Shown here one piece after another: positions 2,618 through 17,411 of a DNA stretch of 21,103 bases. The position numbers were made by a program, and so were the translations under genes. The number at the start of each line of letters is the position of its first letter. Position 1 is the first letter of the stretch. This stretch comes from Treponema sp. (GTDB taxonomy: Bacteria > Spirochaetota > Spirochaetia > Treponematales > Treponemataceae), in NCBI GenBank assembly GCA_017617145.1, contig JAFZWX010000159.1, positions 1 through 21,103 on the forward strand. Direction: 5' to 3'. Below the pieces are notes generated by a model, which had not been told where the DNA came from, searched no databases, and saw nothing but the letters and a program-made list of their open reading frames with translations.

Positions 2618-5600
2618 ATGAGTAAAGGATTCAATGAAAACACTAGAGTCCAGGTTCCGGCAATTTTACACCTTACAAGGCTTGGATATACATACATTGG
2701 AAAGATTTATGAAGAGAATGCTGGTGAACAGTATGATTCTGAAACAAATATACTCATTGATGAATTTCATAACTCCTTTAACAGACTAAATCATGGAAAA
2801 GAAAAAGAATGGCAGCATATTTTTTCTGATATTAAACAGATTCTGAATGATGATGATCTTGGACGTGGGTTTTACAAGCTTTTAACTTCTGAAACAGCTT
2901 ATAAGTTAGTTGATTTTGAAAATCCGAAGAACAATACTTATCTTGTTACAGGAGAGTTTACCTGTCGTAATGGAGATGATAACTTTCGTCCTGACATTAC
3001 TCTTTTCATAAATGGTCTTCCGCTCGTTTTTATTGAAGTAAAGAAACCGAATAACCACGAAGGCATTGTTTCTGAATATAAACGTATTTATGAACAAAGA
3101 ATGCCGAATAAAGCATACCGCAGATTCTTTAATATTACTCAGTTAATGATTTTCTCTAATAATATGAACTATGATACTCTGGACGGAATTGTTCCTGTAC
3201 AGGGCTCGTTCTATTGTACTGGTTCAAGATCGAAACCTTTCTTTAATTGCTTTAGAGAAGAGAATCCTGCTCAACTTGATATTGAGCCTTTTATTGCAGC
3301 TTTTCCTTATAAGAAGCTTGATGAAACTGTTGAGCAGATAGTGCTTTCTGATTTCAACTGTCAGGTCATTTTCCAAACGGAAGAATATAAAACTAATAAA
3401 AACTTTGACAGACCAACAAATAAGATTCTTACTTCGATGTGTTCTCCTGCAAGACTTCTTTATTTACTCAAATATGGAATTGCATATTTGAAGAGTGAAA
3501 AGGAAGTTGATGGTAAGATTGAAATTAAAGATGAAAAACACATTATGCGATACCAGCAGTTCTTTGCTTCTATGGCGATTACTGCAAGATTCGATAAAGG
3601 TATAAAAAGCGGAATTATCTGGCATACACAGGGAAGCGGAAAGACTGCGCTTGCGTATTACCTTAATTTTATTCTTACTGATTATTTTGCAAAACAAAAT
3701 ATGGTTGCTAAGTTCTATTTTATTGTAGACCGTCTTGATTTGATGGAACAGGCAACTGAAGAGTTTGAAAATCGTGGACTGAAAGTTACAACTGCTGAAA
3801 CTCGTGAAGAACTTATGAATCAGTTTAAGCACACACAGTCTAAGGAAAGCAATACTGGTGAACATGAAATTGTAGTTGTAAACATTCAGAAGTTTGCAGA
3901 AGATAAATCGAAGGTTGATTTACCTGCTTATTCTACAAACTTACAAAGAATATTCATTATTGATGAAGCTCACAGAGGATATGACCCGGCAGGATGTTTC
4001 CTTTCTAATCTTTTTGATGCAGATAAAAATGCAATTAAACTTGCTCTTACCGGTACTCCACTTTTGAAGGCAGAAAAAAAGAGTTGTGCTGTATTCGGTG
4101 ATTATATCCACACATACTATTATGATAAATCGATTGCGGACGGTTATACTGTAAAACTTTTAAGAGAGGATATAGAGACTTCTTACAAGGAAAAACTGAA
4201 TGAAGTTCAAGAAAGAGTTCGCAAAACCCTTACAGATGAAAATAAAAACTCTCTGGATAAACTGGTTCAGCAAAAAGAAGTAACAAAGGCAGATATTATA
4301 GAGCACGAAGTATATGTAAAAGAACTCTTGCGTTATATCATAAAAGACTTTGTTAGATTCAGAGCCATTCAAGGAGACCCTACTCTTGGGGCAATGATTG
4401 TTGCAGAAACTGGACCACAGGCAAAAAAGATTTCTAAATACTTTGATGAAGTTATGTCTGAACTCAAAGAAAAAGAGAATATGACTACAACGCTGAAGCA
4501 TGCTCTTATTCTTCATGACGTAGGTACTAAACAGGAACGCAAGCAGATAGTTCAAAAAGACTACAAAAAGAATATGACAGTTGATGTTCTTGTTGTGTTC
4601 AATATGCTTTTGACTGGATTTGATGCTCCTCGTTTGAAGAAGCTTTATCTTGGACGTGCATTACAGGATCATAACCTTTTACAGGCTATTACACGAGTAA
4701 ACCGTCCGTATAAAGATATGCGATATGGATACCTTGTGGATTTTGCAGATATAAAAGCAAACTTTAATGAGATTAACAAACAGTATCTGAATGAACTGAA
4801 TAAGTTTAATGATCCGAATGAGGATGGTACAACTAATACAAACACCTTTACTCAGATTCTGGAAAATCCTGAACAGATTATTCATGACATGAAAGTTATT
4901 AAGCAGACACTCTTTGATTATGATACTGAAAATGCAGAAAACTTCAGTTCGCAGATTTCTGAGATTGAAGACAAAGACAAACTGCTTGAACTTAAAAATG
5001 CTTTGTTTGCTGCTAAATGCATGAGCAATCTTGTTCGTACTTTTGGTGATGAAGAACTTAAAGCAGCTTTTGTAAAAGTTAGGCTTGACCGTGTAGCAGA
5101 AATGCTCAGCGAGGTTCAGAATCATATTGATTTGATTAATCAGAAGGAAGCTTTTATTGCAAGTGAAGATACAAAGATTGCAATTAATGAAGCAATGCTG
5201 CATATTAAGTTCAACTTTGCAAAGATTGGCGAAGAAGAATTAAAGATAATTTCATGTGGTAAAGAACTGGAAGAAAAACGCAAGCGAACTTTGAATGAGT
5301 TTGAAAACAATTTTGACCCGGAAGACCCAGAGTTCATTACTCTCAGGGCGGCTTTCTTAAACAGATTCAAAGAACATGGATTTGTTCCTAATTCGATTGC
5401 ACAATTCAATGAAGAAAACAAGGATCTGGATGAAATTATTGCAAGATTGAGAAATATAAATAAGAAGAATGAAAATCTTGCAAAAAAATATGGTGGTGAT
5501 GCAAAATTTGTAAGAGTTCACAAAAGAATCCGAGAAGCTAATCAGGAACGCCAGATAAAACATGAGCCATGTATTATTTCTGAATTTGAGGATGATATAG

Positions 5601-5821
5601 TTCATGCATTACTTACGGTAAAAACTGAAATTGACCAGAAGGTATTTGACCGCAACAATATTCTTAAGAAAGATGATTATTTTGAAAATACAGTTTATGA
5701 ACTTGTAGACGGTACTTTGTATAAAATGCATATTGATTCAGAAATGGATGACTGCGACTTTATAAAGAACAAAGTAGCCAGACAGTATTTAAATCAATAT
5801 CATAATGTATATGGAGCATAA
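2618..5821 (+). CDS. hsdR: type I restriction enzyme R subunit (endonuclease/translocase)
   Basis: Motor and nuclease subunit that, with HsdM and HsdS, translocates and cuts DNA lacking the proper methylation. It has 1067 residues, a normal length. The N-terminal PDDEXK nuclease is visible as PDITLF at 125-130 followed by EVKK at 140-143. The SF2 translocase motifs follow in order: Walker A HTQGSGKT 336-343, DEAH box IIDEAHRG near 447-454, motif III LTGTP 477-481, then in the second RecA-like half a TGFDAPRLKKLY segment and ITRVNRPY as motif VI. The C-terminal about 350 residues are helical and charged and probably form the HsdM-binding domain. Start ATG 2618 has GGAG at 2605-2608. It is the first gene of the operon, and hsdM begins 3 nt after its stop. 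All key motifs look intact. Confidence 0.95.
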   Translation: MSKGFNENTRVQVPAILHLTRLGYTYIGKIYEENAGEQYDSETNILIDEFHNSFNRLNHGKEKEWQHIFSDIKQILNDDDLGRGFYKLLTSETAYKLVDFENPKNNTYLVTGEFTCRNGDDNFRPDITLFINGLPLVFIEVKKPNNHEGIVSEYKRIYEQRMPNKAYRRFFNITQLMIFSNNMNYDTLDGIVPVQGSFYCTGSRSKPFFNCFREENPAQLDIEPFIAAFPYKKLDETVEQIVLSDFNCQVIFQTEEYKTNKNFDRPTNKILTSMCSPARLLYLLKYGIAYLKSEKEVDGKIEIKDEKHIMRYQQFFASMAITARFDKGIKSGIIWHTQGSGKTALAYYLNFILTDYFAKQNMVAKFYFIVDRLDLMEQATEEFENRGLKVTTAETREELMNQFKHTQSKESNTGEHEIVVVNIQKFAEDKSKVDLPAYSTNLQRIFIIDEAHRGYDPAGCFLSNLFDADKNAIKLALTGTPLLKAEKKSCAVFGDYIHTYYYDKSIADGYTVKLLREDIETSYKEKLNEVQERVRKTLTDENKNSLDKLVQQKEVTKADIIEHEVYVKELLRYIIKDFVRFRAIQGDPTLGAMIVAETGPQAKKISKYFDEVMSELKEKENMTTTLKHALILHDVGTKQERKQIVQKDYKKNMTVDVLVVFNMLLTGFDAPRLKKLYLGRALQDHNLLQAITRVNRPYKDMRYGYLVDFADIKANFNEINKQYLNELNKFNDPNEDGTTNTNTFTQILENPEQIIHDMKVIKQTLFDYDTENAENFSSQISEIEDKDKLLELKNALFAAKCMSNLVRTFGDEELKAAFVKVRLDRVAEMLSEVQNHIDLINQKEAFIASEDTKIAINEAMLHIKFNFAKIGEEELKIISCGKELEEKRKRTLNEFENNFDPEDPEFITLRAAFLNRFKEHGFVPNSIAQFNEENKDLDEIIARLRNINKKNENLAKKYGGDAKFVRVHKRIREANQERQIKHEPCIISEFEDDIVHALLTVKTEIDQKVFDRNNILKKDDYFENTVYELVDGTLYKMHIDSEMDDCDFIKNKVARQYLNQYHNVYGA

Positions 5822-5824
5822 AAA

Positions 5825-7474
5825 ATGAGCGATATTAAAGCTAAAACAATAAAGTTGATTGATGAACTTAAAGCAACCTGTCAGGCCAAAGGTCTCGGAA
5901 ATGATGGAAATGAGTTCAAGATTATTACCCAAGTTTTTCTTTATAAGTTTTTAAATGATAAGTTCGGTTATACACTAAAAACAAAAGATACTCGCTACAA
6001 AGAACAGTTTGCAAAGGCTGCAAAATGGGATGAAGAATATTCAAAGCTTTCTGAAGAGGAACAGAAACGTGTTTGTAAAGTCCTGGGAGCAGACTGTCCA
6101 AATCTTTACAGCAGACATTTAATCTCTACTCTCTGGAACCAGCAAAGTAAAAAGGATTTTGATCAGATTTTTGATGATACAATGGAAGATATTGCAGCTG
6201 TAAACATTGAAACCTTTTCTACAATGACTGCAGAAAAAGCAAAGATTCCAATTTTTGAACGACTTACCCAATATGTAACAGATACAAGCCAGAGAGCAGC
6301 TTTTGCAAGTGCTCTTATAGACAAGCTTGCAAACTTCAGTTTTGAAGAAGCATTTAAGGAACATTACGATTTCTTTGCAGCTGTATTTGAATATCTTATC
6401 CAGGATTACAACACAGCTGGCGGCGGAAAATATGCTGAATATTATACACCACATGCAATTGCAACTATTATGGCAAGATTGCTTGTAGGCGATGATGAAG
6501 ACTTACACAATATTGAATGTTATGACCCTTCTGCCGGAACTGGTACTTTGCTTATGGCATTGGCTCACCAGATTGGAGAAGATAAGTGTACAATCTTTAG
6601 TCAGGATATAAGTCAGCGTTCAAATAAGATGCTCAAACTGAATCTTATTTTGAACAACCTTGTTTCGAGCCTTGATAATGCAATTCAAGGAGACACGCTT
6701 GTAAGTCCTTATCATAAAGGCGAAGACGGAACCAGTTTGAAACAGTTTGACTTTGTTGTTTCAAATCCACCGTTTAAGATGGACTTTAGCGATACTCATA
6801 AAGATATTGCAGCTCAACCAGCTCGCTTTTGGGCAGGAGTTCCAAATATAAAACCGAATGACAAGGATAAGATGGAAATATACCTTTGTTTTATTCAGCA
6901 TGTAATTAACTCTTTGAAGGAAGAATCTGGAAAAGGCGCCATTGTTGTTCCTACAGGATTCATTACTTCTAAAAATGGAATTGGTAAAAAGATTCTTGAA
7001 AAGATTGTTGATGAACACATTGTATGGGGTGTTGTTTCAATGCCTAGCAATGTATTTGCAAATACTGGTACTAACGTTAGTGTGCTCTTCTTTGATAAAT
7101 CTAAATCAAGTGAAAATGTAATTCTTATTGATGCACAGAAACTTGGTGAAGAATACAAGGATGCACAGGGCTTAAAGAAACGTCGTCTAACACAAGAAGA
7201 AATTGAAAAAATTGTAACTACATTCCGCAAAAAAGAAGTTGTTGATGATTTTAGCGTTGTTGTTTCTTATGACCAGATTAAAGAAAAAGGTTATGCCCTT
7301 AGTGCAGGACAATACTTTGATATCAAGATAGAATATGTAGATATAAGCGAAGAAGAATTCAATGCACAGATGAAAGCTGATACTGATGAGCTTAATGATA
7401 TGTTTGATGAAAGTCATAAACTGGAAAGTGAAATAAAAAAGCAGCTGGCAGGACTGTCATTCTGCGGGAAGTAA
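5825..7474 (+). CDS. hsdM: type I DNA methyltransferase M subunit (N6-adenine)
   Basis: Transfers a methyl group from S-adenosylmethionine to adenine at the site chosen by HsdS, and is also needed for restriction. It has 549 residues. Residues 1 to about 150 are the helical HsdM N-terminal domain. The catalytic domain shows GGGKYAEYYTP at about 199-209, AdoMet motif I DPSAGTG at 234-240, and the N6-adenine catalytic motif IV NPPF at 314-317. A later GVVSMPSNVFANTGTNVSVLFF segment (two parts: GVVSMPSNVFANTG, TNVSVLFF) is also typical of HsdM. GGAG at 5813-5816 inside the end of hsdR serves as ribosome binding site. All motifs are intact, so the enzyme should be active if paired with a working HsdS. 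Confidence 0.95.
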   Translation: MSDIKAKTIKLIDELKATCQAKGLGNDGNEFKIITQVFLYKFLNDKFGYTLKTKDTRYKEQFAKAAKWDEEYSKLSEEEQKRVCKVLGADCPNLYSRHLISTLWNQQSKKDFDQIFDDTMEDIAAVNIETFSTMTAEKAKIPIFERLTQYVTDTSQRAAFASALIDKLANFSFEEAFKEHYDFFAAVFEYLIQDYNTAGGGKYAEYYTPHAIATIMARLLVGDDEDLHNIECYDPSAGTGTLLMALAHQIGEDKCTIFSQDISQRSNKMLKLNLILNNLVSSLDNAIQGDTLVSPYHKGEDGTSLKQFDFVVSNPPFKMDFSDTHKDIAAQPARFWAGVPNIKPNDKDKMEIYLCFIQHVINSLKEESGKGAIVVPTGFITSKNGIGKKILEKIVDEHIVWGVVSMPSNVFANTGTNVSVLFFDKSKSSENVILIDAQKLGEEYKDAQGLKKRRLTQEEIEKIVTTFRKKEVVDDFSVVVSYDQIKEKGYALSAGQYFDIKIEYVDISEEEFNAQMKADTDELNDMFDESHKLESEIKKQLAGLSFCGK

Positions 7475-7486
7475 TGGGAGGAAGAT

Positions 7487-8743
7487 ATGGGAAAATCAAT
7501 TAGCATCATTGATAATGATTATTCTAAGTGGGTAGAAGTTCTTATAAATCGCTACAAAAGAACCCAGATAAACGCTGCAGTAAAAGTAAATTCAGAACAG
7601 ATAAAATATAATTTTCTCTTAGGCCGCGATATAGTAGAAATGAAAGTTGAAGAACGCTGGGGAGAAGGCGTTATTACACAATTAAGTAAAGACTTAAAAA
7701 AAGAAATGCCAACAGCTGAAGGTCTTTCTGTCACAAACCTACGTTATTGCAGAAGATTTTATTTATTGTATTCAAATTTAATTATAATTCACCCCCAATC
7801 TGAGGGCGAATTAACAAAAAAGAAGAAAAATGAAATTCGCCCCCAAGCTGGGGGTGAATTGATAGAGCTCTCAGAAAACAAAGAAGCAACTATCATATTC
7901 AATATTCCCTGGGGTCACCATAAACTGATTCTGGACAAGGTTAAGGGTAATACTAAAAAAGCCTTGTTTTATATGCAGCAAACTTTGGAAAATGGATGGA
8001 GCCGAAATATTCTGCTTAATTGGATTGACACAGACTTGTTTGAGCGTTCTGGAAAATCGATTACAAACTTTGTAAATACGTTACCAGTTCCAAATAGTGA
8101 TTTAGCACAGGAAATTACAAAAGATCCATATAATTTTGCATTTGCCGGTGTTACAGAAAAACATAATGAAGATCAATTGAAATTTGCTTTATTGCAAAAT
8201 ATAACAAATTTTCTTGTTGAACTTGGAACTGGTTTTGCTTATGTTGGAAGAGAATATAGACTTGAAATTGGGCATACAGAAAATTTTATCGACTTGCTTT
8301 TTTACAATTTGAAATTACGATGCTATGTCGTTGTTGAAGTAAAAATTGGAAAGTTTTCTTCTCGTGATATTGGGCAGATTGGAAGTTATATTGTTGCTGT
8401 AAATCATCAATTAAGAGAAGAAGGAAAAGATAATCCGACAATTGGACTTTTAATTTGCAAAAGTAAAGATAATATTCAAGCTCAATATGCTCTGGAATCT
8501 AGCAGTCAGCCAATAGGTATTTCTGAATATGAGCTGGAAAAATTCTATCCGGAAAAAGTTGAAGGAACAATTCCAACAATTGCAGAAATTGAAAATAAAG
8601 TATCTAACGGTATTGGAATTGAAGAGGCAGCAAAATTATCTATACTTTCTGTAAAAGATGCTGCTGAATTAAAGATTCCTAATGTAAATAATTCAGCTAA
8701 GTCTGCTTACGTAAAGAAACAACAGAAAAAGAAAAAGGACTAA
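7487..8743 (+). CDS. YhcG/DUF1016-family PDDEXK nuclease protein
   Basis: A 418-residue member of the YhcG (DUF1016) family, found often within type I restriction loci; its exact role there is not settled. Residues 10 to about 95 form the N-terminal DUF1016 domain (YNFLLGRDIVE, LSVTNLRYCRRFY). Residues 139-180 carry IPWGHHKLILDKV and TLENGWSRNIL, matching the family's 'LSWSHY...NGWS' block. The nuclease core is at 267-290: NFIDLLFYN with D269, then VVVEVKIGKF with E284 and K286. The C-terminus is lysine rich. GGGAGG at 7476-7481 is a strong ribosome binding site. Residues 100-126 are encoded by two palindromic repeats that sit in the variable linker between the two family blocks. The gene separates hsdM from hsdS. 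Possible roles are a second nuclease, a subunit of the RM complex, or an anti-phage effector. Confidence 0.85.
   Translation: MGKSISIIDNDYSKWVEVLINRYKRTQINAAVKVNSEQIKYNFLLGRDIVEMKVEERWGEGVITQLSKDLKKEMPTAEGLSVTNLRYCRRFYLLYSNLIIIHPQSEGELTKKKKNEIRPQAGGELIELSENKEATIIFNIPWGHHKLILDKVKGNTKKALFYMQQTLENGWSRNILLNWIDTDLFERSGKSITNFVNTLPVPNSDLAQEITKDPYNFAFAGVTEKHNEDQLKFALLQNITNFLVELGTGFAYVGREYRLEIGHTENFIDLLFYNLKLRCYVVVEVKIGKFSSRDIGQIGSYIVAVNHQLREEGKDNPTIGLLICKSKDNIQAQYALESSSQPIGISEYELEKFYPEKVEGTIPTIAEIENKVSNGIGIEEAAKLSILSVKDAAELKIPNVNNSAKSAYVKKQQKKKKD
7786..7860. repeat. pair of 27-nt palindromic repeats inserted in frame
   Basis: Two 27-nt units lie at 7786-7812 and 7834-7860, starting 48 nt apart, which keeps frame. 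Each is an imperfect palindrome: arms AATTCACCCCC/GAGGGCGAATT in the first and AATTCGCCCCC/GGGGGTGAATT in the second, with 5-nt centres. The units are also inverted copies of one another with about four differences. They encode the related peptides HPQSEGEL and RPQAGGEL. They stand out as GC-rich islands in an AT-rich gene, which suggests a mobile palindromic element. Confidence 0.8.
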
Positions 8744-8749
8744 GCAGAT

Positions 8750-9997
8750 ATGGAATTGAAGAAATATAGGCTTGAAGAATTAGCAAAAGTAGAAATAAGC
8801 GGAGTTGATAAGAAAACTAAGTATAATGAAACTCCTGTTAAACTATGCAACTTTACTGATGTTTATTATAACTGGGCAATTACTAAAGAAATGGCAGATT
8901 CTTTTATGGACGCATCTGCTAATCAAAAAGAAATTGATTCATTTATTCTCAAAAAAGGTCAAGTTGCTTTCACAAAAGATAGTGAAACACGCGATGATAT
9001 TGGCGTGCCAACCTATATTGCTGATGATTTTGAAAATGTAGTTCTTGGTTACCATACTGCTTTAGTTACACCAGACAAAAACAAACTTTCTGGTAAGTAT
9101 TTGAATGCCTTTATGAATTCAAAATATATCCAGAAGTATTTTGAAAATAACGCAAGCGGAAGCGGACAAAGATATACCCTTTCAAATGAAACCTTAAATA
9201 GTATTCCTGTATTAGCACCTGATCTCCCAACTCAAGAAAAAATTGGAAATATATTCAGTAACATTGATAGAAAAATTTCACTGAACCGTCGTATGAACGC
9301 AAAACTGGAGCAAATGGCAAAACGTCTTTATGACCACTGGTTTGTGCAGTTTGATTTTCCTAATGCAGAGGGCAAGCCCTACAAGACAAGCGGCGGCAAA
9401 ATGGTCTGGAACGAAAAACTCAAACGCGAGATTCCGGAGGGATGGACATGCGGTGTATTATCAGATATAGCAAACATAACAATGGGACAATCACCAGAAG
9501 GAAGTTCCTACAACGAAGATGGCAATGGTTCTATTTTCTACCAAGGAAGTACAGATTTTGGAATGCGATTTCCCAAAATTCGTATGTTCACAACAGAGCC
9601 AGCAAGATTTGCAAAACAAGGCGATATTTTGATGAGTGTACGTGCACCTGTAGGTGCAATGAATATTGCAAATACAGATTGTTGTATTGGTCGTGGTTTA
9701 GCAGCGCTTAATTCAAAACTTGGTTCAATTACACATCTATGGTATTTGATGGACGTTTTCAAACACACTTTTGAAAACAAAAGCGCAGCAGGTACCACTT
9801 TTGGCGCAATCACAAAAGATGAATTACACAATTTACCGGTTATTATACCTTCAAAAGAAGTAATTTCTGCATTCAGTGAAAAGACTCAATCTATTTTTAA
9901 TTATCAATTAGAAATTGAAAAAGAGACTGCAAAACTTACTACACTTCGAGAACGTCTATTGCCGTTGCTTATAAATGGTCAAGTTGAGGTAAAATAA
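8750..9997 (+). CDS. hsdS: type I restriction-modification specificity subunit
   Basis: DNA-recognition subunit, 415 residues, with the standard two-domain layout. Target recognition domain 1 spans about residues 1-158. The central conserved region (LPTQEKIGNIFSNIDRKISL, about 159-178) continues into a long helix to about residue 200. Domain 2 begins at IPEGWTCGVLSDIA (about 228) and runs to about 375, with GDILMSVRAPVG typical of HsdS, then the C-terminal helix ending TLRERLLPLLINGQVEV. Each domain would read one half of a split target. Only one complete hsdS is present, so no shuffling partner is visible. Start ATG is 6 nt after the previous stop with a poor Shine-Dalgarno site, suggesting coupling. 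Confidence 0.93.
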   Translation: MELKKYRLEELAKVEISGVDKKTKYNETPVKLCNFTDVYYNWAITKEMADSFMDASANQKEIDSFILKKGQVAFTKDSETRDDIGVPTYIADDFENVVLGYHTALVTPDKNKLSGKYLNAFMNSKYIQKYFENNASGSGQRYTLSNETLNSIPVLAPDLPTQEKIGNIFSNIDRKISLNRRMNAKLEQMAKRLYDHWFVQFDFPNAEGKPYKTSGGKMVWNEKLKREIPEGWTCGVLSDIANITMGQSPEGSSYNEDGNGSIFYQGSTDFGMRFPKIRMFTTEPARFAKQGDILMSVRAPVGAMNIANTDCCIGRGLAALNSKLGSITHLWYLMDVFKHTFENKSAAGTTFGAITKDELHNLPVIIPSKEVISAFSEKTQSIFNYQLEIEKETAKLTTLRERLLPLLINGQVEVK

Positions 9998-9998
9998 T

Positions 9999-11396
9999 AT
10001 GGATTTTTATGATTTAGCTCCTACTAATGAAAATGTTTATCAAACTTTTTTTGAAGACAAAATTGGTCGTAATCCTAAAGTATTTAAATTTATTTCACTT
10101 ATAAATAGAATCAACGCCTCTTGTTCTATATCATTGGATGGTTCATGGGGAAGTGGTAAAACTATATTCGTGAAACAAGTTAAAATGGTTCTTGATACTC
10201 TAAATCAAAACAAGGCAAAAGGTGATTTTTCTAAGCAACAAGAAGATGCCGTAAAAGCAGTTTTTACTAGACAGACAGATAAGAATACACCAGTTGATTC
10301 AATAAAACCGCATGTTTGTGTTTATTATGATGCTTGGGAAAATGATAATGATATAGACCCATTGATATCACTTGTGCATAGTATTGTAAAAGATTTTTCT
10401 TGTGGTTATAAATTCGACCATGCACCTGATTTAGGAAAAGTAGTTTCTTCTATTGCTATGGGAATTACATCGGCAATAACAAATATTGATGTCCATAAAA
10501 TATTTGAAGATTGTCACTTTACAAATGATTTAGAGGATTTTAAGAAAACAAAAGATCTTGAGCAAACAATTTCTGAAATGTTAGATTCTTTGTTACCAGA
10601 ACATGGTAATAGATTAGTCATTTTCATTGATGAATTGGATAGATGTAAACCAATATATGCTGTCAAACTTTTAGAAAGAATTAAACATTATTTTACAAAT
10701 GAAAAAATAACATTTGTTTTTTCAACAAATGTAAAAGAATTGTCTAACACAATAAAGAATCTATATGGCTCAGATTTTGATGCAGATAGATATTTGGATA
10801 AATTTTTTGATTTAAGACTTTCTTTGCCTCCAATTGATATTAGTGAATACTTATCAAAATTAGGATATTGGGAAGAGCATATAATCATAAAAAAAATATT
10901 CAATGATTATTCATTTTCAATGCGTGAAATATGCAGATTCATGAAAGTATATGAACTCGCTAAACCTTCTGATTTTGCATTAAATTCAGTACCGTATTCA
11001 CAAGAATGCAATTATGGTTTTAGAATTCTAGAGAATTGTGTTTTACCATTACTTATTGCATTACAAATTACAGATTCAAAAATACTTAGCGATTTTATAA
11101 ATGGGAAGAACTCAAAACCATTAGTAGATTTGCTTGGTTCGATTCATCATCCATATTTAGATATTTTGAATATTCATTCAATGCCTATTTACATAGAAAA
11201 AGGAGAGGCGTGCCAGAAAGATGTTATCAATTGCTTATACGAAAAAATATACCACCCAGATTATTCAGTGGATATAAGTAAATATGGGAATAATTTGGAT
11301 ATAATAGATTTTCAACCTCTAATGGTAAAGATAATTCATGATAGTTTTTGTTTAATATCTGAATTCAATACAGCCCAAGATAAAACACGGAAATAA
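9999..11396 (+). CDS. KAP-family P-loop NTPase, first of a tandem pair
   Basis: An ATPase of the KAP group (STAND-related P-loop NTPases; PifA, the F-plasmid phage-exclusion protein, belongs here). It has 465 residues. Walker A is GSWGSGKT 48-55, the KAP signature YYDAWEND 109-116, and Walker B with the family's DELDRC is VIFIDELDRC 207-216, followed by an LLERIKHYF helix. A YLDKFFDLRLSLPP segment about 60 residues later matches KAP sensor-region features. The C-terminal 180 residues are helical and not recognised. KAP proteins often have membrane helices inserted in the NTPase domain, but none is clear here, so it is probably soluble. It starts one base after the hsdS stop with GAGG at 9986-9989, so it belongs to the RM operon. 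It looks even more AT-rich than hsdRMS, hinting at separate ancestry. Confidence 0.82.
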   Translation: MDFYDLAPTNENVYQTFFEDKIGRNPKVFKFISLINRINASCSISLDGSWGSGKTIFVKQVKMVLDTLNQNKAKGDFSKQQEDAVKAVFTRQTDKNTPVDSIKPHVCVYYDAWENDNDIDPLISLVHSIVKDFSCGYKFDHAPDLGKVVSSIAMGITSAITNIDVHKIFEDCHFTNDLEDFKKTKDLEQTISEMLDSLLPEHGNRLVIFIDELDRCKPIYAVKLLERIKHYFTNEKITFVFSTNVKELSNTIKNLYGSDFDADRYLDKFFDLRLSLPPIDISEYLSKLGYWEEHIIIKKIFNDYSFSMREICRFMKVYELAKPSDFALNSVPYSQECNYGFRILENCVLPLLIALQITDSKILSDFINGKNSKPLVDLLGSIHHPYLDILNIHSMPIYIEKGEACQKDVINCLYEKIYHPDYSVDISKYGNNLDIIDFQPLMVKIIHDSFCLISEFNTAQDKTRK

Positions 11397-11398
11397 AA

Positions 11399-12778
11399 AT
11401 GACAGATTACCTTTCCCGCCAACCATATATTGACCTCCTCAAATCAGTAATTATAAATCAATGTGAAAACCCTTCCGGTTATTCTTTTTCTATTGATGGA
11501 GATTGGGGGTGCGGAAAGACATGGATATTGACAGAACTTGAACAACAACTTATTGAAGATAAAGAGTATCTCATCTTTCATTACAATGCCTGGGAAAATG
11601 ATTATTATAAAGAACCTCTTATAGCAATTCTTTCGGTAATGATAGAAAAGCTAAATGAAATAACGAAACAAAAATCTCTTTATGAATCAGCAATTGATGA
11701 ATTAATAAAAGAAGCTTTGAATGATTTAAAACTTCTAATATGTGGTCCTTTTCACGAAGTCACAAAAATTGATTTAGAAAAATCAATTGAACATAAAAAA
11801 GGTCTTTTCAAACGAATCAAACAAGGCACAAAAATATCATCAAAAGAAATTGATTCTTTTCTTCCTCTGCAAAATGCACTAAAAACTGTTAGAGAAAATA
11901 TAAAAAAGCTTTCAGTTAAATTGCACATTATTCTTGTTATTGATGAATTAGACCGTTGCCTGCCTGAATATGCAATAAAGGTTTTGGAAAGACTACATCA
12001 TATTTGTAATGAAATGCCGGTTATTCAGATTCTAGCGATTAACAAACGAGATTTATCTTTTGGAATTGCAAAAATCTATGGAGTAAATAATTCTGAAATT
12101 GATCCTTATAAATTTGCTGATAAATATTTGCAGAAATTTATTCAGCTTAGTATTCCTCTAAACAATGGAATTATTTCAGATGATGAAACTATATTAAATA
12201 AAATTGATGAAGGTTTTTCTCCTGCGATTGCAATAGATAAAGCAAGTTTAATTGATTTTTATAAATCATTAATGACTGGAATAACACCAAGAACACAGGA
12301 GCATATTTGCAAACAAGTAGCATTAGCTCATAAACTTACTGTTTTGAGTGGACATAAACTAGATTCTTATTCCTATGGACTTCTCTGTTGTGAACTGCTG
12401 TATTGCATTAAATATTTAATATTTAGGACTTATACTGATTTTATTATAGAACATGAAGATGGTTCTATTTATTCATTAAAATCAAATATCATTAACAATA
12501 AATGCGAAATAATATCTTTAAGTCAATTTGAAAACAATCTGGAGAAAATCTTTAGAAAAGAATATCAAAGTCACGAAGAAGATTTTCCAAGTCCGAGAGG
12601 TGGATATAAACAATTATCTGGTTTTTCGTGCGAAAATACTTCTAGTCAGCTTATGAATTATTTTGTTAATACATATTTAATTTCAATTAAATGGCCACAA
12701 GTAATTACAATGGATAATGTTATAAAACCTGAAAGAGAGTTTCTGAAATATTTTAAAACAACTTTACAAAGGTTTTAA
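11399..12778 (+). CDS. KAP-family P-loop NTPase, second of a tandem pair
   Basis: A diverged paralogue of the preceding protein, 459 residues. It has Walker A GDWGCGKT 34-41, the matching signature HYNAWEND 61-68, Walker B IILVIDELDRC 177-187 with the same following pattern (PEYAIKVLERLHH against PIYAVKLLERIKH), and YLQKFIQLSIPL aligned with YLDKFFDLRLSLP. Outside these blocks the two proteins differ strongly, especially after about residue 280, so they are unlikely to be a recent duplication. No membrane segment is clear. It begins 2 nt after the first KAP stop. Two adjacent, distinct KAP ATPases suggest a hetero-oligomer or a sensor/effector pair tied to the restriction system, but this is inference. 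A terminator-like hairpin overlaps its stop codon. Confidence 0.82.
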   Translation: MTDYLSRQPYIDLLKSVIINQCENPSGYSFSIDGDWGCGKTWILTELEQQLIEDKEYLIFHYNAWENDYYKEPLIAILSVMIEKLNEITKQKSLYESAIDELIKEALNDLKLLICGPFHEVTKIDLEKSIEHKKGLFKRIKQGTKISSKEIDSFLPLQNALKTVRENIKKLSVKLHIILVIDELDRCLPEYAIKVLERLHHICNEMPVIQILAINKRDLSFGIAKIYGVNNSEIDPYKFADKYLQKFIQLSIPLNNGIISDDETILNKIDEGFSPAIAIDKASLIDFYKSLMTGITPRTQEHICKQVALAHKLTVLSGHKLDSYSYGLLCCELLYCIKYLIFRTYTDFIIEHEDGSIYSLKSNIINNKCEIISLSQFENNLEKIFRKEYQSHEEDFPSPRGGYKQLSGFSCENTSSQLMNYFVNTYLISIKWPQVITMDNVIKPEREFLKYFKTTLQRF

Positions 12779-12786
12779 TTTTTTTT
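12753..12786 (+). terminator. weak intrinsic terminator ending the cassette
   Basis: TTAAAAC (12753-12759) pairs with GTTTTAA (12772-12778), with an inner CTT/AAG extension (12762-12764 with 12769-12771), an AA bulge and a TACA loop. Eight T residues follow at 12779-12786. The stem is AT-rich, so termination may be partial. The right arm includes the stop codon of the second KAP gene. Confidence 0.45.
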
Positions 12787-12793
12787 ACTAACT

Positions 12794-12855
12794 CTTTCCC
12801 AAAAGTTAATATTTCTTAACCATCAGGAAACCCATCTCAATTTTATAATTACCTT
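12794..12855 (+). promoter_or_regulatory. conserved upstream element A with dyad and -10 (tail-tube gene)
   Basis: Bases 12794-12830 form an inverted-repeat block (CTTTCCC...AGTTAAT...CTTAACC...GGAAA) that recurs upstream of the next gene. TATAAT at 12844-12849 ends 6 nt before the ATG, placing a typical transcription start at the A of ATG. No Shine-Dalgarno site is present. This suggests a phage late promoter with an activator site at the -35 region and a leaderless mRNA. It is intact directly after the restriction cassette. Confidence 0.6.
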
Positions 12856-13638
12856 ATGAACATTCAAGGCAGAGACTGCACACTGACTGTGGCAAGAGAC
12901 GATGAATTTATTCCATTACCGTACAGCGAGGAAACTGTAAGATTAGCGTCAAAAGGCTATTCTTTGCCAGGATGTATTGGCGAAAGAAACAGGGAAAAGA
13001 CTGTAGTAACGCACAGGGAAATTGAAGGCTGCTTTGTAACGCGGCTTGAATACCTGAACGTACTGCCCCTGTTTCTTTTGTTTTTTAACAGCAGTGAAAA
13101 GTTTGACCTTTATGCAGACAGAGGATTTGAAAAGACAGTTTACAAAAATGTACTGCCGCAAAGCTTTGAGCTTAGGGCGGATAATAAGGATGCATTTAAG
13201 ATAAGGGTGAATGTAAAATCAAGTCGTGAATCTTATGTGACAGAATGGCCGCTAAATACTCCGAAACTTGAATGGAATGATACAGGACGTACATATTTTT
13301 ATGACGGACATTTTGTTACTGCGGATTTACAGACGCTGCCGCTGGTGTACAGGTTTGAGCTGAACGGAAGCTTTACTGAAAAGACAAACTTTAAGATTAC
13401 TCTTTATTTTCCTCTCTCTGAAAATCATTACCCTTCTCAGGGGAGAATTGAAAAGCTTAATATCCTGATAGATCATACTGACGGAATAAGCGTTGATTTA
13501 TTTAATCTTGTGCCAGTCACAGACTTATGCGACATAAACTGTCCGGACACGGTTTTGTGTTTTCAGACCTTTAACATTCTTGGGGATGTAATTTTGAACA
13601 TAAGGAACCAGGAACAGAATACCCATGTACTTTTATAA
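12856..13638 (+). CDS. phage tail-tube-like protein
   Basis: A 260-residue protein opening the tail module. The opening IQGRDCTLTV, the middle VTHREIEGCFVTRLEYLNVLPLFL (two parts: VTHREIEGCFVTRL, EYLNVLPLFL) and the strand DLYADRGFEKTVYKNVLPQS followed by FELRADNKDAFKIRVNVKSS (about 97-136) match the order seen in tail-tube proteins of siphophages, where a subunit-linking hydrophobic helix is followed by 'ydG.vv.sl.l' strands. No signal peptide or enzyme motif is visible. Start ATG 12856 lacks a ribosome binding site and lies almost on the predicted transcription start. The assignment is by pattern and position; another minor tail protein is possible. Confidence 0.45.
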   Translation: MNIQGRDCTLTVARDDEFIPLPYSEETVRLASKGYSLPGCIGERNREKTVVTHREIEGCFVTRLEYLNVLPLFLLFFNSSEKFDLYADRGFEKTVYKNVLPQSFELRADNKDAFKIRVNVKSSRESYVTEWPLNTPKLEWNDTGRTYFYDGHFVTADLQTLPLVYRFELNGSFTEKTNFKITLYFPLSENHYPSQGRIEKLNILIDHTDGISVDLFNLVPVTDLCDINCPDTVLCFQTFNILGDVILNIRNQEQNTHVLL

Positions 13639-13701: not shown

Positions 13702-15204
13702 ATGAAGTTTTATGAGCTGCCGCCAGAAGTAAACAACAGAATCTCAAACACAGATATGCGTCCATATGTTCGAATTGTTTTTGAAAAACAAGGCGGAGAT
13801 GTTTTTGTAAATGACAGCGATATTATTGAATGCGTTATAACTTCTTACAAATCTACTGACGGTGGAATTGTTAATTATGGAGAGATTGTTTTTGACAACA
13901 CCAATGGCAGCTTTGATGTAGAGAATGATGAAGAGCTTATTCCTGGACTTAGCATTGAAGTTTGGTATTGCTTTGGAGACAATTCTTCTACCTTCTTCCG
14001 CTTTCATTTTTTTGTTGATGATGACGGATTCCAAACAGAAGCTACAGGATTCTTAGACAGGACCTGTAAGATAAAGCTTGTTGATTTGAGCAGCAGACTT
14101 GATAACGCAAAGCTACAGAGAAATTGGACTGACAGTGAAACTGTTGTAGACAGCGTTGTTTGTGACAAAACTAATCCTGCAGAATCACTAGTACACATAA
14201 TCGCAAGACGTGCAGGAATTGAAGCAAATCAGATTAACTGCGGCTACCTTCCTTTTAATATTCCTTATGTAGTTTTGAACAACACTGTATGGAAAGAGCT
14301 TTGTGCTCTTGCTCGTGCTTATAATGCAGTTGTTGAATGTGGTCGCGATATGACTCTGAGTTTTATTGAAAGTCCTTATGACACTGAAAATGAATATTCA
14401 GAAGAAACAGGTTTTGATCTGACTGAAAAGGAAATTACTCATTACAGATTCTTCAGCAGAAATGATAACTATGCAAATAATATCCGCCTTAAATATACAC
14501 GCTATGTGAGAACTGAACGACAAGAACTTTGGCAATACAGTGACGGTCCTGCCTGGTACGACGAGGATATGAATGCGTGCTATCCGTTTACAGATGACAG
14601 CCGTGCAATTATTCGTGATGCAGATTACCAGGCAATTTATGTTGCAAAGAATGAAGAAGGAAAAACAAGGAATGTTGTTTGGGCTGACAATCTTACAACG
14701 GAACAAGAATTTATTGACCAGATGATTGTTGCTGATGGTTCGGAAAAGCCTGGTGTTATTCAGTTTGATACTACAACTTACAAGGACCGTGCTGTTATCC
14801 AGCTTACAAGAAACAACAATCTGATTGCATTATACAAAGCTGCAATTTATGGAAGCGCAATTATAAGTGAAACAAACTTTTCTGTTTATGTAAAAGATGA
14901 TGAAGAAATTGCCAGATACGGACAGATTGCAAAAAATATTACTTCCAAGTTTTTGAGTGATGATGAAATTGAAGGTACTCCATTTTATGAGAGACGTGCA
15001 AATGATTTACTTCGCGAATGCGTGAACAAAAAAAGCGGCTGGTATGTGACTACTTTTCTTTGTCTGGTTGGAGCTCGTGTTGGGGCTTTTATGAATATAA
15101 GACTTAATGAAAACAAAGCTTTTAAGAAAGTAAGAATTGATGAGCTTACTTTGAGATATAAAAAGGATTGTGCGTTCAGCACTGAATTGTGGCTTAGTGA
15201 TTAA
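13702..15204 (+). CDS. phage tail hub / baseplate-type protein
   Basis: A 500-residue, beta-rich protein with no membrane segment. The N-terminal third has ECVITSYKSTDGGIVNYGEI and a FDNTNGSFDVEND stretch, then TCKIKLVDLSSRLDNAKL. Residues about 150-220 read ESLVHIIARRAGIE ... VVLNNTVWKELCALARAYN AVVEC. This 'helix, then strand, then W..l..la.a.ga.v' pattern is characteristic of gp27/phage hub-like (tail tip, late control D-like) proteins. It would form part of the tail tip ring that touches the cell. It follows the tail-tube gene directly with no tape-measure gene between them. The start is fixed by the conserved 62-nt upstream element; there is no Shine-Dalgarno site. Confidence 0.5.
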   Translation: MKFYELPPEVNNRISNTDMRPYVRIVFEKQGGDVFVNDSDIIECVITSYKSTDGGIVNYGEIVFDNTNGSFDVENDEELIPGLSIEVWYCFGDNSSTFFRFHFFVDDDGFQTEATGFLDRTCKIKLVDLSSRLDNAKLQRNWTDSETVVDSVVCDKTNPAESLVHIIARRAGIEANQINCGYLPFNIPYVVLNNTVWKELCALARAYNAVVECGRDMTLSFIESPYDTENEYSEETGFDLTEKEITHYRFFSRNDNYANNIRLKYTRYVRTERQELWQYSDGPAWYDEDMNACYPFTDDSRAIIRDADYQAIYVAKNEEGKTRNVVWADNLTTEQEFIDQMIVADGSEKPGVIQFDTTTYKDRAVIQLTRNNNLIALYKAAIYGSAIISETNFSVYVKDDEEIARYGQIAKNITSKFLSDDEIEGTPFYERRANDLLRECVNKKSGWYVTTFLCLVGARVGAFMNIRLNENKAFKKVRIDELTLRYKKDCAFSTELWLSD

Positions 15205-16303: not shown

Positions 16304-16586
16304 AAAGATTCTGATTTGGATTGGCAGCTTATTTGTTGCCATATTCACGGTTCTTCTTGTTAGAGATTCCCGGGTCAAGCCCGAGAATGACACGGTTGAA
16401 CAAGATATAAGGGAGGATGATATTGATGAAATCAATGCTAAGGCGGCTAAGAAACGGGAGGAAGCGATTGCTCGTATTGAGCATGCTGATGCTCGTACTT
16501 TGTCCGAAGGTTATGGCTCAGTCTGTGACGCAATCTCAGACGGAAAAGCAAGATTCAGAAAGCGTTGCGGCAGAGCTGACAATTGA
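16278..16586 (+). CDS. membrane-anchored coiled-coil protein, inner-membrane spanin-like
   Basis: A 102-residue protein with one N-terminal transmembrane helix (about 10-28, ILIWIGSLFVAIFTVLLV) and a charged helical rest, resembling inner-membrane spanin subunits that help disrupt the outer membrane. ATG 16278 overlaps the end of the holin gene by 26 nt; AAGG lies at about 16267-16271. Residues 29-38 (RDSRVKPEND) come from a dispersed palindromic repeat inserted in frame. The 3' half overlaps the next gene in another frame, as in nested Rz/Rz1 pairs. Low similarity to known spanins is expected because that family is defined by topology. Confidence 0.45.
   Translation: MKKVWEVIKKILIWIGSLFVAIFTVLLVRDSRVKPENDTVEQDIREDDIDEINAKAAKKREEAIARIEHADARTLSEGYGSVCDAISDGKARFRKRCGRADN
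16365..16391. repeat. 27-nt dispersed palindromic repeat inside a gene
   Basis: The unit begins GATTCCCGGGTCAAG and ends CCCGAGAATGAC. Arms ATTCCCGGGT and GCCCGAGAAT pair around CAA with two wobble positions. From memory, a sequence of this type is a repeated intergenic and intragenic palindrome in several unrelated bacterial genomes, coding the peptide SRVKPEND in this frame. It is a GC-rich island in this gene. Confidence 0.65.
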
Positions 16587-16860
16587 GGAAGTTATGGAAA
16601 TTGCAGAAGAAGAAATTGAGCGAACAGCTCAGGAGGCAGTTAAGGCTGCTTTACTGGAAGTTGGCGGCGAGCTGGCTTATGAAAAAGAGAGAGCTGAAGA
16701 ACTGGAAAGACAGAAGCTGGCTCTTGAAATAGAAAACAAAAAGCTTAAGGAAGAATGCCAGAAGAAAGACAAAAACTTTCTTTATGGTGTTTTGATTGGT
16801 GGAACTGGTGGCGTGGTGCTTATCAGTGTAGTTATGGGATTGCTTGGAGGAATAAAATGA
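16426..16860 (+). CDS. signal-peptide, coiled-coil and C-terminal membrane protein, possible single-protein spanin
   Basis: 144 residues from ATG 16426, chosen because GGGAGG at 16411-16416 gives a 9-nt spacer; the upstream ATG 16417 lies too close to that site. A basic N-terminus (RRLRNGRKR) and hydrophobic core LLVLSMLMLVLCPKVMA form a signal peptide, with VMA/Q (residues 29-32) as a good signal peptidase I site. C26 sits in LVLC, which is not a normal lipobox. Residues about 50-115 are a long charged coiled coil. Residues about 118-141 (FLYGVLIGGTGGVVLISVVM) form a C-terminal transmembrane helix. It overlaps the previous gene out of frame by 161 nt. The layout is that of unimolecular spanins (outer-membrane anchor, coil, inner-membrane anchor), except that the lipid anchor is uncertain. 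The stop overlaps the next start (ATGA). Confidence 0.5.
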   Translation: MKSMLRRLRNGRKRLLVLSMLMLVLCPKVMAQSVTQSQTEKQDSESVAAELTIEEVMEIAEEEIERTAQEAVKAALLEVGGELAYEKERAEELERQKLALEIENKKLKEECQKKDKNFLYGVLIGGTGGVVLISVVMGLLGGIK

Positions 16861-17411
16861 TTTTTGATAAGAACAAGGTTCGGGGAATGGTGACGGTTAC
16901 TGTGCGTGATAAGGACGGTAATATTAAATGTTTTGAACGCAGCTTGTGGAGACGAATGTTCGGACTTAAAGCAAAGCCGATGATTTTCAAGCATCACAAC
17001 ACCATCACTACTCAGGGAGATGGACTACTTGCGGATCTGATGATTAGTAATCCTGTTCAGAACAAGGTGGATGCAACTTATGGTTATATGATTGTCGGAA
17101 CCGGCTGGACCGGAAGCAGTCCTAAGAACAATACGAATGTAAACACTTCAACCGGAACTTATAAAAAACTTGATTCAACTTTCCCGAAATTGCAGGCAGC
17201 ATTTGGACAGACAGGACAGAATGTTGTTTTGTACCGCACAAGCTTTGCTGCAGGAGATTTGAACGCAAATGGTATAAACGAAGTTGCACTGATGAACGGA
17301 AACAACGCACAGGCAAAATGTCTTGCTTATGCACAGATAAGCCCTGCTGTAAATGTAACAAGTGCGGACAGTCTTCAGATTGACTGGCAGATAACTGTAA
17401 GCGGAAGCTGA
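16857..17411 (+). CDS. phage virion protein, tail fibre/baseplate-like
   Basis: A 184-residue protein starting at ATG 16857 with GGAGG at 16846-16850; the frame is open further upstream but that part is a shadow of the previous gene. The region KHHNTITTQGDGLLADLMIS, then YGYMIVGTGWTGSSPKNN and RTSFAAGDLNANGINEVALM, follows the pattern 'n.it..G...l...l......ia.G.g....a.......l............v......g.i.E.gl.n' seen in small phage tail and fibre-tip structural proteins. No signal peptide or enzyme motif is seen. Function as a receptor-contact or tip component is inferred. Confidence 0.45.
   Translation: MIFDKNKVRGMVTVTVRDKDGNIKCFERSLWRRMFGLKAKPMIFKHHNTITTQGDGLLADLMISNPVQNKVDATYGYMIVGTGWTGSSPKNNTNVNTSTGTYKKLDSTFPKLQAAFGQTGQNVVLYRTSFAAGDLNANGINEVALMNGNNAQAKCLAYAQISPAVNVTSADSLQIDWQITVSGS

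Follow-up and report, generated by a model that had tools for sequence, protein, structure and literature searches.

A stretch of 21,103 nucleotides from Treponema sp. (assembly GCA_017617145.1, contig JAFZWX010000159.1, positions 1 to 21,103 of the forward strand; hereafter, the window) raises the question of why six closely packed genes, encoding a type I restriction-modification (RM) system, a DUF1016/YhcG nuclease and two KAP-family P-loop NTPases, stand among phage genes, and whether the nuclease and the NTPases work with restriction or only beside it. We consider it probable that the locus is a type I system carried by a prophage and containing embedded, exchangeable genes that are predicted to serve as a second line of defence. 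We also favor the view that this six-gene cassette is the cargo of a probably temperate phage and occupies a hotspot between two conserved phage genes. Judging from its predicted genes, a role of the cassette in defence is likely.

Composition of the cassette

The cassette spans positions 2618-12778 of the + strand. In a first-pass annotation it had been read as hsdR-hsdM-DUF1016 nuclease-hsdS-KAP-KAP, and this order held: all six open reading frames (ORFs) are open and co-directional, and their Pfam identities are clear. The genes are as follows.

2618-5821, + strand: hsdR, type I restriction subunit; 1067 amino acids (aa); Pfam HSDR_N, SWI2_SNF2, ResIII and T1R_D3-like
5825-7474, + strand: hsdM, N6-adenine methyltransferase subunit; 549 aa; Pfam N6_Mtase (215 bits, E 2e-63), PADLOC MTase_I (769 bits)
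7487-8743, + strand: DUF1016/YhcG PD-(D/E)XK nuclease, in the accessory slot between hsdM and hsdS; 418 aa; Pfam YhcG_C (1e-56) and DUF1016_N (7e-32)
8750-9997, + strand: hsdS, specificity subunit; 415 aa; Pfam Methylase_S in two stretches (2e-20)
9999-11396, + strand: KAP1, KAP-family P-loop NTPase, in the accessory slot after hsdS; 465 aa; Pfam KAP_NTPase (1e-29)
11399-12778, + strand: KAP2, KAP-family P-loop NTPase, the last cassette gene; 459 aa; Pfam KAP_NTPase (1e-29)

Taken together, hsdR, hsdM and hsdS make up a complete type I RM gene set. The hsd motifs had been called intact, and we recovered them: HsdR, which matched HSDR_N, SWI2_SNF2 and ResIII with E values of 3e-30, 3e-44 and 2e-25, contains DITL...EVK and DEAH, and HsdM contains NPPF at residue 314. 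From its two Methylase_S stretches, HsdS has two target-recognition domains. The DUF1016 protein carries a D...EVK motif and matched the PADLOC model PDC-S02 with 488 bits. Both KAP proteins have intact Walker A (GSWGSGKT in KAP1 and GDWGCGKT in KAP2) and Walker B motifs, and PDC-S20 was matched by KAP2 over its full length (576 bits) and by KAP1 partially (172 bits). The motifs of HsdR, HsdM, DUF1016 and the KAP proteins were all read in their usual meaning. The extra genes occupy two slots in the type I set: the DUF1016 nuclease lies between hsdM and hsdS, and KAP1 followed by KAP2 lies behind hsdS. The intergenic gaps, previously given as 1 to 12 nt, measured 3, 12, 6, 1 and 2 nt in order; because they are so tight, the cassette is probably a single transcription unit. 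Its GC content per kb (0.28-0.37) is lower than that of the window ends (0.44 and 0.39).

A variable interval between two conserved phage genes

The cassette is flanked by the following phage genes.

38-1345, + strand: major capsid protein, left-hand phage module; Pfam Phage_capsid (91 bits), PHROG major head protein; relatives in 22 IMG/VR loci
1434-2332, + strand: two conserved phage genes (1434-1934 and 1934-2332), presumed neck genes, the second of which is the left border of the hotspot
12856-13638, + strand: conserved phage gene, right border of the hotspot, adjoining the cargo in every complete interval; tail by position only

The first-pass annotation had located the cassette between head-neck and tail genes. 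The capsid part of this claim is secure, and the same borders recur in 27 intervals; the neck and tail labels are positional guesses, and Pfam gave no family above the cut-off for the two genes before the cassette or the two just after it.

We then surveyed relatives of these genes. The relatives of the capsid protein in the 22 IMG/VR loci are 67-93% identical to it, and both border genes are present on 11 of the 22 contigs. In a Treponema-like genus (that of genome G001, an uncultured Treponema sp.), the right-flank gene at 13702 is carried by 29 of the 200 genomes, with 38 matches listed. The upstream regions of 27 of these matches were fetched; two matches were already in our set, eight were left out (mostly on short contigs) and one was half of a split gene. 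Both borders were present in 20 of the fetched regions and not in the other seven, and six of the 20 duplicated IMG/VR cargo and were counted once. The resulting 27 complete phage or prophage intervals consist of the 11 IMG/VR contigs, the window, locus L180 of genome G504 and 14 others, and in all of them relatives of the genes at 1934-2332 and 12856-13638 enclose variable cargo.

The cargo ranges from 1.4 to 14.2 kb in length, and there are 24 distinct cargoes, with near-identical DNA in one pair and one trio. Pfam, PADLOC or phmmer comparison with annotated cargo identified an RM or methyltransferase gene in 18 of the 27 intervals (the weakest call is the C5 match of L272, at 83 bits). Five of these cargoes are type I and two are type III, and the rest encode MvaI/BcnI, BpuJI, LlaJI, GmrSD, C5 or D12 enzymes. 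The other nine contain AlbA_2 (three), AAA_14/DUF4143 (two), a lone DUF1016 gene, a DruA/SspH-like set or nothing recognized (two). Related phages that lack the cassette have the same borders and other cargo. On its predicted gene content, the interval between the two border genes is a phage defence hotspot with high-turnover cargo, rich in defence genes. Relatives of the phage sit in bacterial contigs as long as 3.4 Mb, and for this reason the phage is probably temperate. Judging from these relatives, its hosts are probably Treponema-like spirochaetes of the gut. Megablast against the phage collection detected no relative of the window. A viral scan with the right-flank gene returned nothing when a single sequence was used, and only contigs already in the set when an alignment was used.

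Some of the cargoes have features of separate interest. In one prophage, a lone DUF1016 gene (L273, 13227-14399; PDC-S02, 395 bits) is the sole cargo ORF and is a candidate stand-alone defence gene. A 275-aa ORF without a Pfam family (L251, 4784-5608, and relatives) recurs beside quite different RM systems (e.g., L264, L276, L278, L280, L281 and L287), and an ORF of 157-166 aa (L012, 8892-9362, and relatives) is a recurrent first cargo gene directly behind the neck gene (e.g., L263, L269, L280, L287 and L288). Two cargoes are possibly mixed or new multi-gene systems: that of L277, with DruA- and SspH-like genes, and that of L266, where D12 methylases stand together with a DrmD-like helicase and a 2399-aa protein whose matches to TmtA are weak. 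In L271 and L285, many consecutive genes of polysaccharide type (by eye, from the starts of the proteins) precede the right border and the left border is out of view, so that these are either a different type of cargo or the edge of a prophage.

A nearly constant hsdR-hsdM core in two sister phages

The closest counterpart of the cassette is found at the same site in L180, where the order is hsdR-hsdM-DUF1016-hsdS-308-aa ORF-KAP2; the 308-aa ORF takes the place of KAP1, which is absent. Protein identities between the window and L180 are 96% for HsdR, 98% for HsdM, 63% for HsdS, 31% for DUF1016 and 45% over 365 residues for KAP2, and the five phage genes flanking the cassette are 53-70% identical. 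At the DNA level, a similarity of 91% extends from position 2522, just before the promoter, to 7474, and similarity is broken within hsdS. Since the hsdR-hsdM DNA is far more alike than the surrounding phage genes, it moved as a module. The hsdR-hsdM core was therefore exchanged recently, and the two phages differ in the specificity subunit and the accessories. The earlier description of a phage-borne cassette is in good agreement with both this module and the RM-rich hotspot. More widely, a close hsdM (E≤1e-120) is present in 22 of the 200 genomes of the genus, in loci where hsdR, hsdM and hsdS are accompanied by varying extras, both in the interval from hsdM to hsdS and downstream of hsdS. 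Three other viral contigs (L243-L245) have related hsdRMS sets without a KAP gene in the stretch examined.

KAP genes recur at type I loci

We also analyzed where relatives of the two NTPases occur. KAP1 was present in 6 and KAP2 in 14 of the 200 genomes of the genus (E≤1e-40), and at the class level, at E≤1e-20, they were present in 7 and 9 of 297 genomes, respectively. When the flanks were read within the genus, an hsd gene was in the same gene run for 12 of 19 KAP2 matches and three of six KAP1 matches. Next, we determined the positions of N6_Mtase matches (E≤1e-20) in 19 genomes that had been chosen for having KAP genes, with a limit of 10 kb. Eleven of 25 KAP genes lay within this distance of an N6 methyltransferase gene, compared with only one of 60 control genes (C5 methyltransferases, 1/44; AbiEii, 0/16; Fisher p=2e-6), and the comparison with the genome background of 2.3% gave p=4e-12. 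Close hsdM and KAP genes occur together in seven genomes (a close hsdM is present in 22 and a KAP gene in 19 of the 200; p=0.0016). Within the hotspot, KAP2 is present in three of the five type I cassettes and in none of the 22 other cargoes (p=0.0034; without the window, 2/4 vs 0/22, p=0.018 by hand). Chance placement was rejected on the basis of the co-location with N6 methyltransferases and the survey of the hotspot intervals. The expectation that KAP genes co-occur with the restriction genes beyond chance was thus borne out for type I-type loci, at a level above two control families.

In several of these loci, an hsd gene and a KAP gene are separated by only 1 to about 15 nt: hsdS-KAP1 in the window, L198 and L188 (the adjacency is found in genomes G002 and G417), hsdR-KAP2 in L176 and L173, and hsdS-KAP2 in L183 and L186. 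A combination of KAP genes with this hsd set is also not confined to one genome, given the hsd set with KAP2 in G504 (L180) and hsdS-KAP1 in G002 and G417. A nuclease gene precedes KAP2 in several loci, namely HNH_5 (L177 and L197), Mrr_cat (L197) and LlaJI (L181). KAP1 and KAP2 represent distinct families of NTPases, and both recur, mostly singly, at type I operons. Co-location and adjacency together indicate recurrent membership in independent type I loci, as predicted for an embedded module.

KAP1 relatives were observed in other settings as well. One stands alone among phage structural-type genes (by eye) on a different viral contig (L023, 10001-11380). In L061 and L063, KAP1 relatives have a helicase/DUF4391-type pair on one side and type III mod-res-type genes on the other (partly by eye), and in L063 a DUF1016 gene adjoins KAP1.

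Pairs of KAP genes

Among 168 KAP-match loci (overlaps included), two full-size KAP genes were found in the window, L058/L197 (one genome), L081, L113 and L048. The pair in L048 consists of two KAP1-type genes 1 kb apart, and L081 has a tandem pair with no hsd genes in the stretch examined. In genome G001 (L058/L197), a long type I operon contains KAP1-HNH-KAP2 as well as another KAP2. In [Clostridium] fimetarium (L113, 9989-19777), KAP-KAP lies directly before hsdM-hsdS, the second KAP scoring only 97 bits with the KAP2 profile, and this order counts for a link between the pair and type I systems. As to the KAP pair as a unit, which the first-pass annotation had stressed, two KAP genes thus do stand at type I loci in G001 and [Clostridium] fimetarium too; elsewhere, KAP genes are mostly single and side-by-side pairs are rare, so that we rejected the pair as the usual unit.

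Two of these loci contain further genes. The G001 operon (contig C4, from L196:7130 to L197:10529) is very long, with hsdR-hsdM, a BroN-like gene, an ATPase gene and hsdS, then further genes that include DUF3800, KAP1, HNH, KAP2, a RhuM-like gene (by eye), Mrr and the second KAP2. Further on in L113 is a gene of 1116 aa that may encode a restriction subunit.

Comparison with known systems

Structure models of KAP1 and KAP2 gave fold matches to RdrA and BrxC, with an aligned identity of 12-18% and low Foldseek template modelling (TM) scores of 0.2-0.4, and a search by sequence for solved-structure relatives of either protein returned none at E≤0.1. Neither QatA nor PifA appeared in the VIA-align lists, an absence that carries no weight. 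Aravind et al. in 2004 reportedly described KAP NTPases with transmembrane segments inserted in the NTPase domain. We found no transmembrane stretch in KAP1 or KAP2, for which the highest 19-residue hydropathy mean was 1.37, and by sequence both fit the KAP domain family and not its membrane subtype. The RADAR system consists of the NTPase RdrA and the adenosine deaminase RdrB. The cassette resembles it in the NTPase fold only: no deaminase was found among the six cassette proteins, and KAP1 and KAP2 are about half the length of RdrA. Likewise, despite the BrxC fold match, no BREX gene was found among the six. The models PDC-S20 and PDC-S02, matched by KAP2 and the DUF1016 protein, are not described by PADLOC itself; we take them to be phage defence candidates. 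The QatABCD system comprises the KAP-type ATPase QatA, the QueC-like QatC and their partners. QatA models matched weakly (29-70 bits), and no QueC-like family was present among the six cassette proteins.

QatC is described as QueC-like (PMC13279940). Tmn is an anti-phage NTPase of the KAP family with two transmembrane domains (PMC11846954; also treated in PMC13273231); it shares the KAP NTPase domain with KAP1 and KAP2, whereas these lack its two transmembrane domains. That type I loci can contain extra genes, as the first-pass annotation stated, is already published: DarTG2 sits between hsdS and hsdR in the RptR island (PMC12255303), TgvAB is embedded in a type I locus of Vibrio VPI-2 (PMC11411939) and PrrC is found at the EcoPrrI type I locus (PMC12707154). 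The cassette has in common with these loci the presence of extra defence-type genes inside an hsd cluster. However, its occupants are KAP NTPases and DUF1016, it is phage-borne, and its accessories vary between sister phages over a near-constant hsdR-hsdM.

A similar comparison can be made for the hotspot. In P2 and P4 phages, antiviral hotspots are variable intervals between conserved phage genes and contain varied defence systems, including RM (Rousset et al. 2022, PMC9122126). Conserved genes enclosing variable defence cargo with RM systems are common to both, but the P2/P4 hotspots lie at the Q-A or psu-int loci and are about 1-5 kb, whereas the one described here is near the capsid gene and reaches 14 kb. 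The phage family and the host also differ, and RM or methyltransferase genes are present in 18 of the 27 intervals here.

Concerning KAP genes as members, recurrent or otherwise, of type I operons, we found no description in the open-licence PMC literature searched, and no paper in that literature combined KAP, P-loop, type I restriction and DUF1016. A plasmid KAP protein has been given a guessed role in phage exclusion (PMC3387028), a KAP NTPase appears in a table row of PMC10855626, which in its excerpt does not describe it as a type I operon member, and nothing on KAP NTPases was found in the excerpts of PMC11514479 or PMC12409362. Type I loci with embedded genes and defence hotspots in phages are already known, and what is new is this hotspot and the KAP NTPases as recurrent type I operon members. 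The swappable-looking extras look like an extension of known patterns rather than a break with them.

Possible explanations for the embedded genes

How might such a locus operate? In the lysogen, HsdMS would mark the host and prophage DNA, and HsdRMS would cleave unmodified DNA that enters the cell. Phages that evade restriction by means of modified DNA or anti-restriction proteins may then meet a second line, made up of the co-expressed DUF1016 nuclease and KAP NTPases. The KAP proteins would in this case be oligomeric NTPase sensors or switches working with nearby nucleases, rather than membrane proteins. From the gene arrangement we infer, as the first-pass annotation did, that the KAP and DUF1016 genes add a second layer to restriction.

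Several observations weigh against a prophage-borne type I system with embedded second-line genes. The exact order hsdR-hsdM-DUF1016-hsdS-KAP-KAP occurs in the window only, among all loci searched. Relatives of the phage bear quite different cargo, with nothing recognized in two of the 27 intervals. No hsd gene is in view for 7 of the 19 KAP2 matches (some on short contigs) and three of the six KAP1 matches in the genus, and of two further KAP2 loci at the class level, L191 has type I genes and L178 has none. The KAP loci in the co-location analysis are also non-independent: G001 gives four of the 25, and G370 and G506 share near copies. The KAP models have modest confidence (predicted local distance difference test 76-77; predicted TM score 0.49 and 0.64), and the RdrA match is partial on each. 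Finally, outside Treponema, the near neighbours of the KAP1 family include HSDR_N in two of 99 cases, N6_N4_Mtase in seven and ResIII in five. This neighbour survey covered 99 of 100 near genes (the dropped item was a KAP1 fragment) and 100 of 134 distant genes, with 25 families listed for each. The idea that KAP1 is type I-specific across bacteria was rejected outside Treponema.

A variant of this reading, to which we give slightly less than an even chance, regards the KAP and DUF1016 genes as defence genes in their own right, which merely benefit from a transcribed 3' end and from recombination in the region and are functionally unconnected to restriction. This would fit the different accessories at the same slots, the lone DUF1016 gene as cargo at the same hotspot (L273) and the KAP1 relative alone among apparent phage structural genes (L023, by eye). 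However, the link to type I genes is far above that of the two other families in the same genomes, and KAP2 tracks the type I cassettes within the hotspot. A closer tie is also conceivable, if unlikely: the KAP NTPases, with DUF1016, may be bound physically or functionally to the type I complex and fire upon inhibition of restriction, like PrrC at EcoPrrI, which sets a precedent (PMC12707154). The recurrent embedding, in which only 1-15 nt separate KAP genes from the hsdS or hsdR of different type I families, and the KAP-KAP order directly before hsdM-hsdS in [Clostridium] fimetarium (L113) agree with such a guard. It fits less well that no HsdMS-binding part was identified and that KAP homologues also occur away from type I genes (G225, G316 and G030) and beside type III and LlaJI systems; because of this latter distribution, no fixed KAP partner is visible. 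In the most far-reaching and rather doubtful reading, the KAP NTPases would be a dedicated class of clients of type I restriction: exchangeable switches set into hsd operons, which sense whether the restriction complex fails or is engaged and then drive an adjacent nuclease (DUF1016, HNH, Mrr or HsdR itself), with two KAP proteins acting together in this phage, G001 and [Clostridium] fimetarium, perhaps as a mixed RdrA-like ring.

We also considered whether the methyltransferase mainly marks the phage DNA against host restriction, with the extras aiding phage growth and not the defence of the lysogen. C5 and D12 methyltransferase genes are indeed frequent cargo of the hotspot, but many are accompanied by nuclease genes (HsdR, MvaI/BcnI, BpuJI, LlaJI, GmrSD and type III res), which would be needless for self-protection, and we regard this explanation as improbable. 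The joining of a chromosomal operon to a phage contig during assembly is a more trivial possibility. Such errors do exist: in L060, from a Bacteroidales metagenome-assembled genome, positions 1-946 are 100% identical to window positions 10358-11303 and are followed by unrelated genes, so that this public contig is plainly chimeric. For the window, however, an artefact is extremely improbable, given that in L180, from a different genome, this hsd core is enclosed by these border genes too, and that 25 further complete intervals share the border genes.

If a prophage-borne type I system with exchangeable second-line genes is the true explanation, then type I operons would be open platforms that take defence modules at set slots, and phages would have the core of the platform in common but exchange specificity and accessories. 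The window and L180 are a natural experiment in this respect, having near-same hsdR-hsdM, different hsdS, DUF1016 and KAP2, and KAP1 present or absent, and with this pair it can be tested directly whether embedded genes act together with restriction or alongside it. In addition, with the phage family in 29 of 200 genomes, the hotspot offers a compact place to find spirochaete defence systems.

Promoter region, cassette end and minor features

Upstream of hsdR is one further feature.

2565-2594, + strand: palindrome CACGAAAA-N7-TTTTCGTG (2565-2587) overlapping an extended -10 element TGCTATAAT (2586-2594); putative operon promoter/operator

The first-pass annotation had proposed a single extended -10 promoter, and TGCTATAAT at 2586-2594 is in fact the sole copy in the window when both strands are scanned. 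The palindrome arms CACGAAAA and TTTTCGTG and the -10 element are identical in L180, and the loop is changed. L180 is the only carrier of the palindrome pattern among 255 loci, and we rejected the palindrome as a general RM operator; the pattern is also present in six viral contigs. The terminator-like end that had been suggested was not supported: a T-run follows the last stop, but there is no hairpin terminator after KAP2 at 12779-12855. Neither terminator-like sites (4, vs 4.6 in shuffles) nor promoter-like sites (40 vs 47.2) are enriched.

Between the neck gene and the promoter, a very stable hairpin without a T-run lies at 2400-2440 (-24.7 kcal/mol, z -7.6). We rejected it as a recombination site of the hotspot, its stem having 19 pairs compared with at most 13 in 16 other regions scanned behind the neck gene. 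At 16417-17411, the ORFs 16417-16860 and 16755-17411 lie in different frames and have about 100 nt in common, which may reflect a later start or a frameshift.

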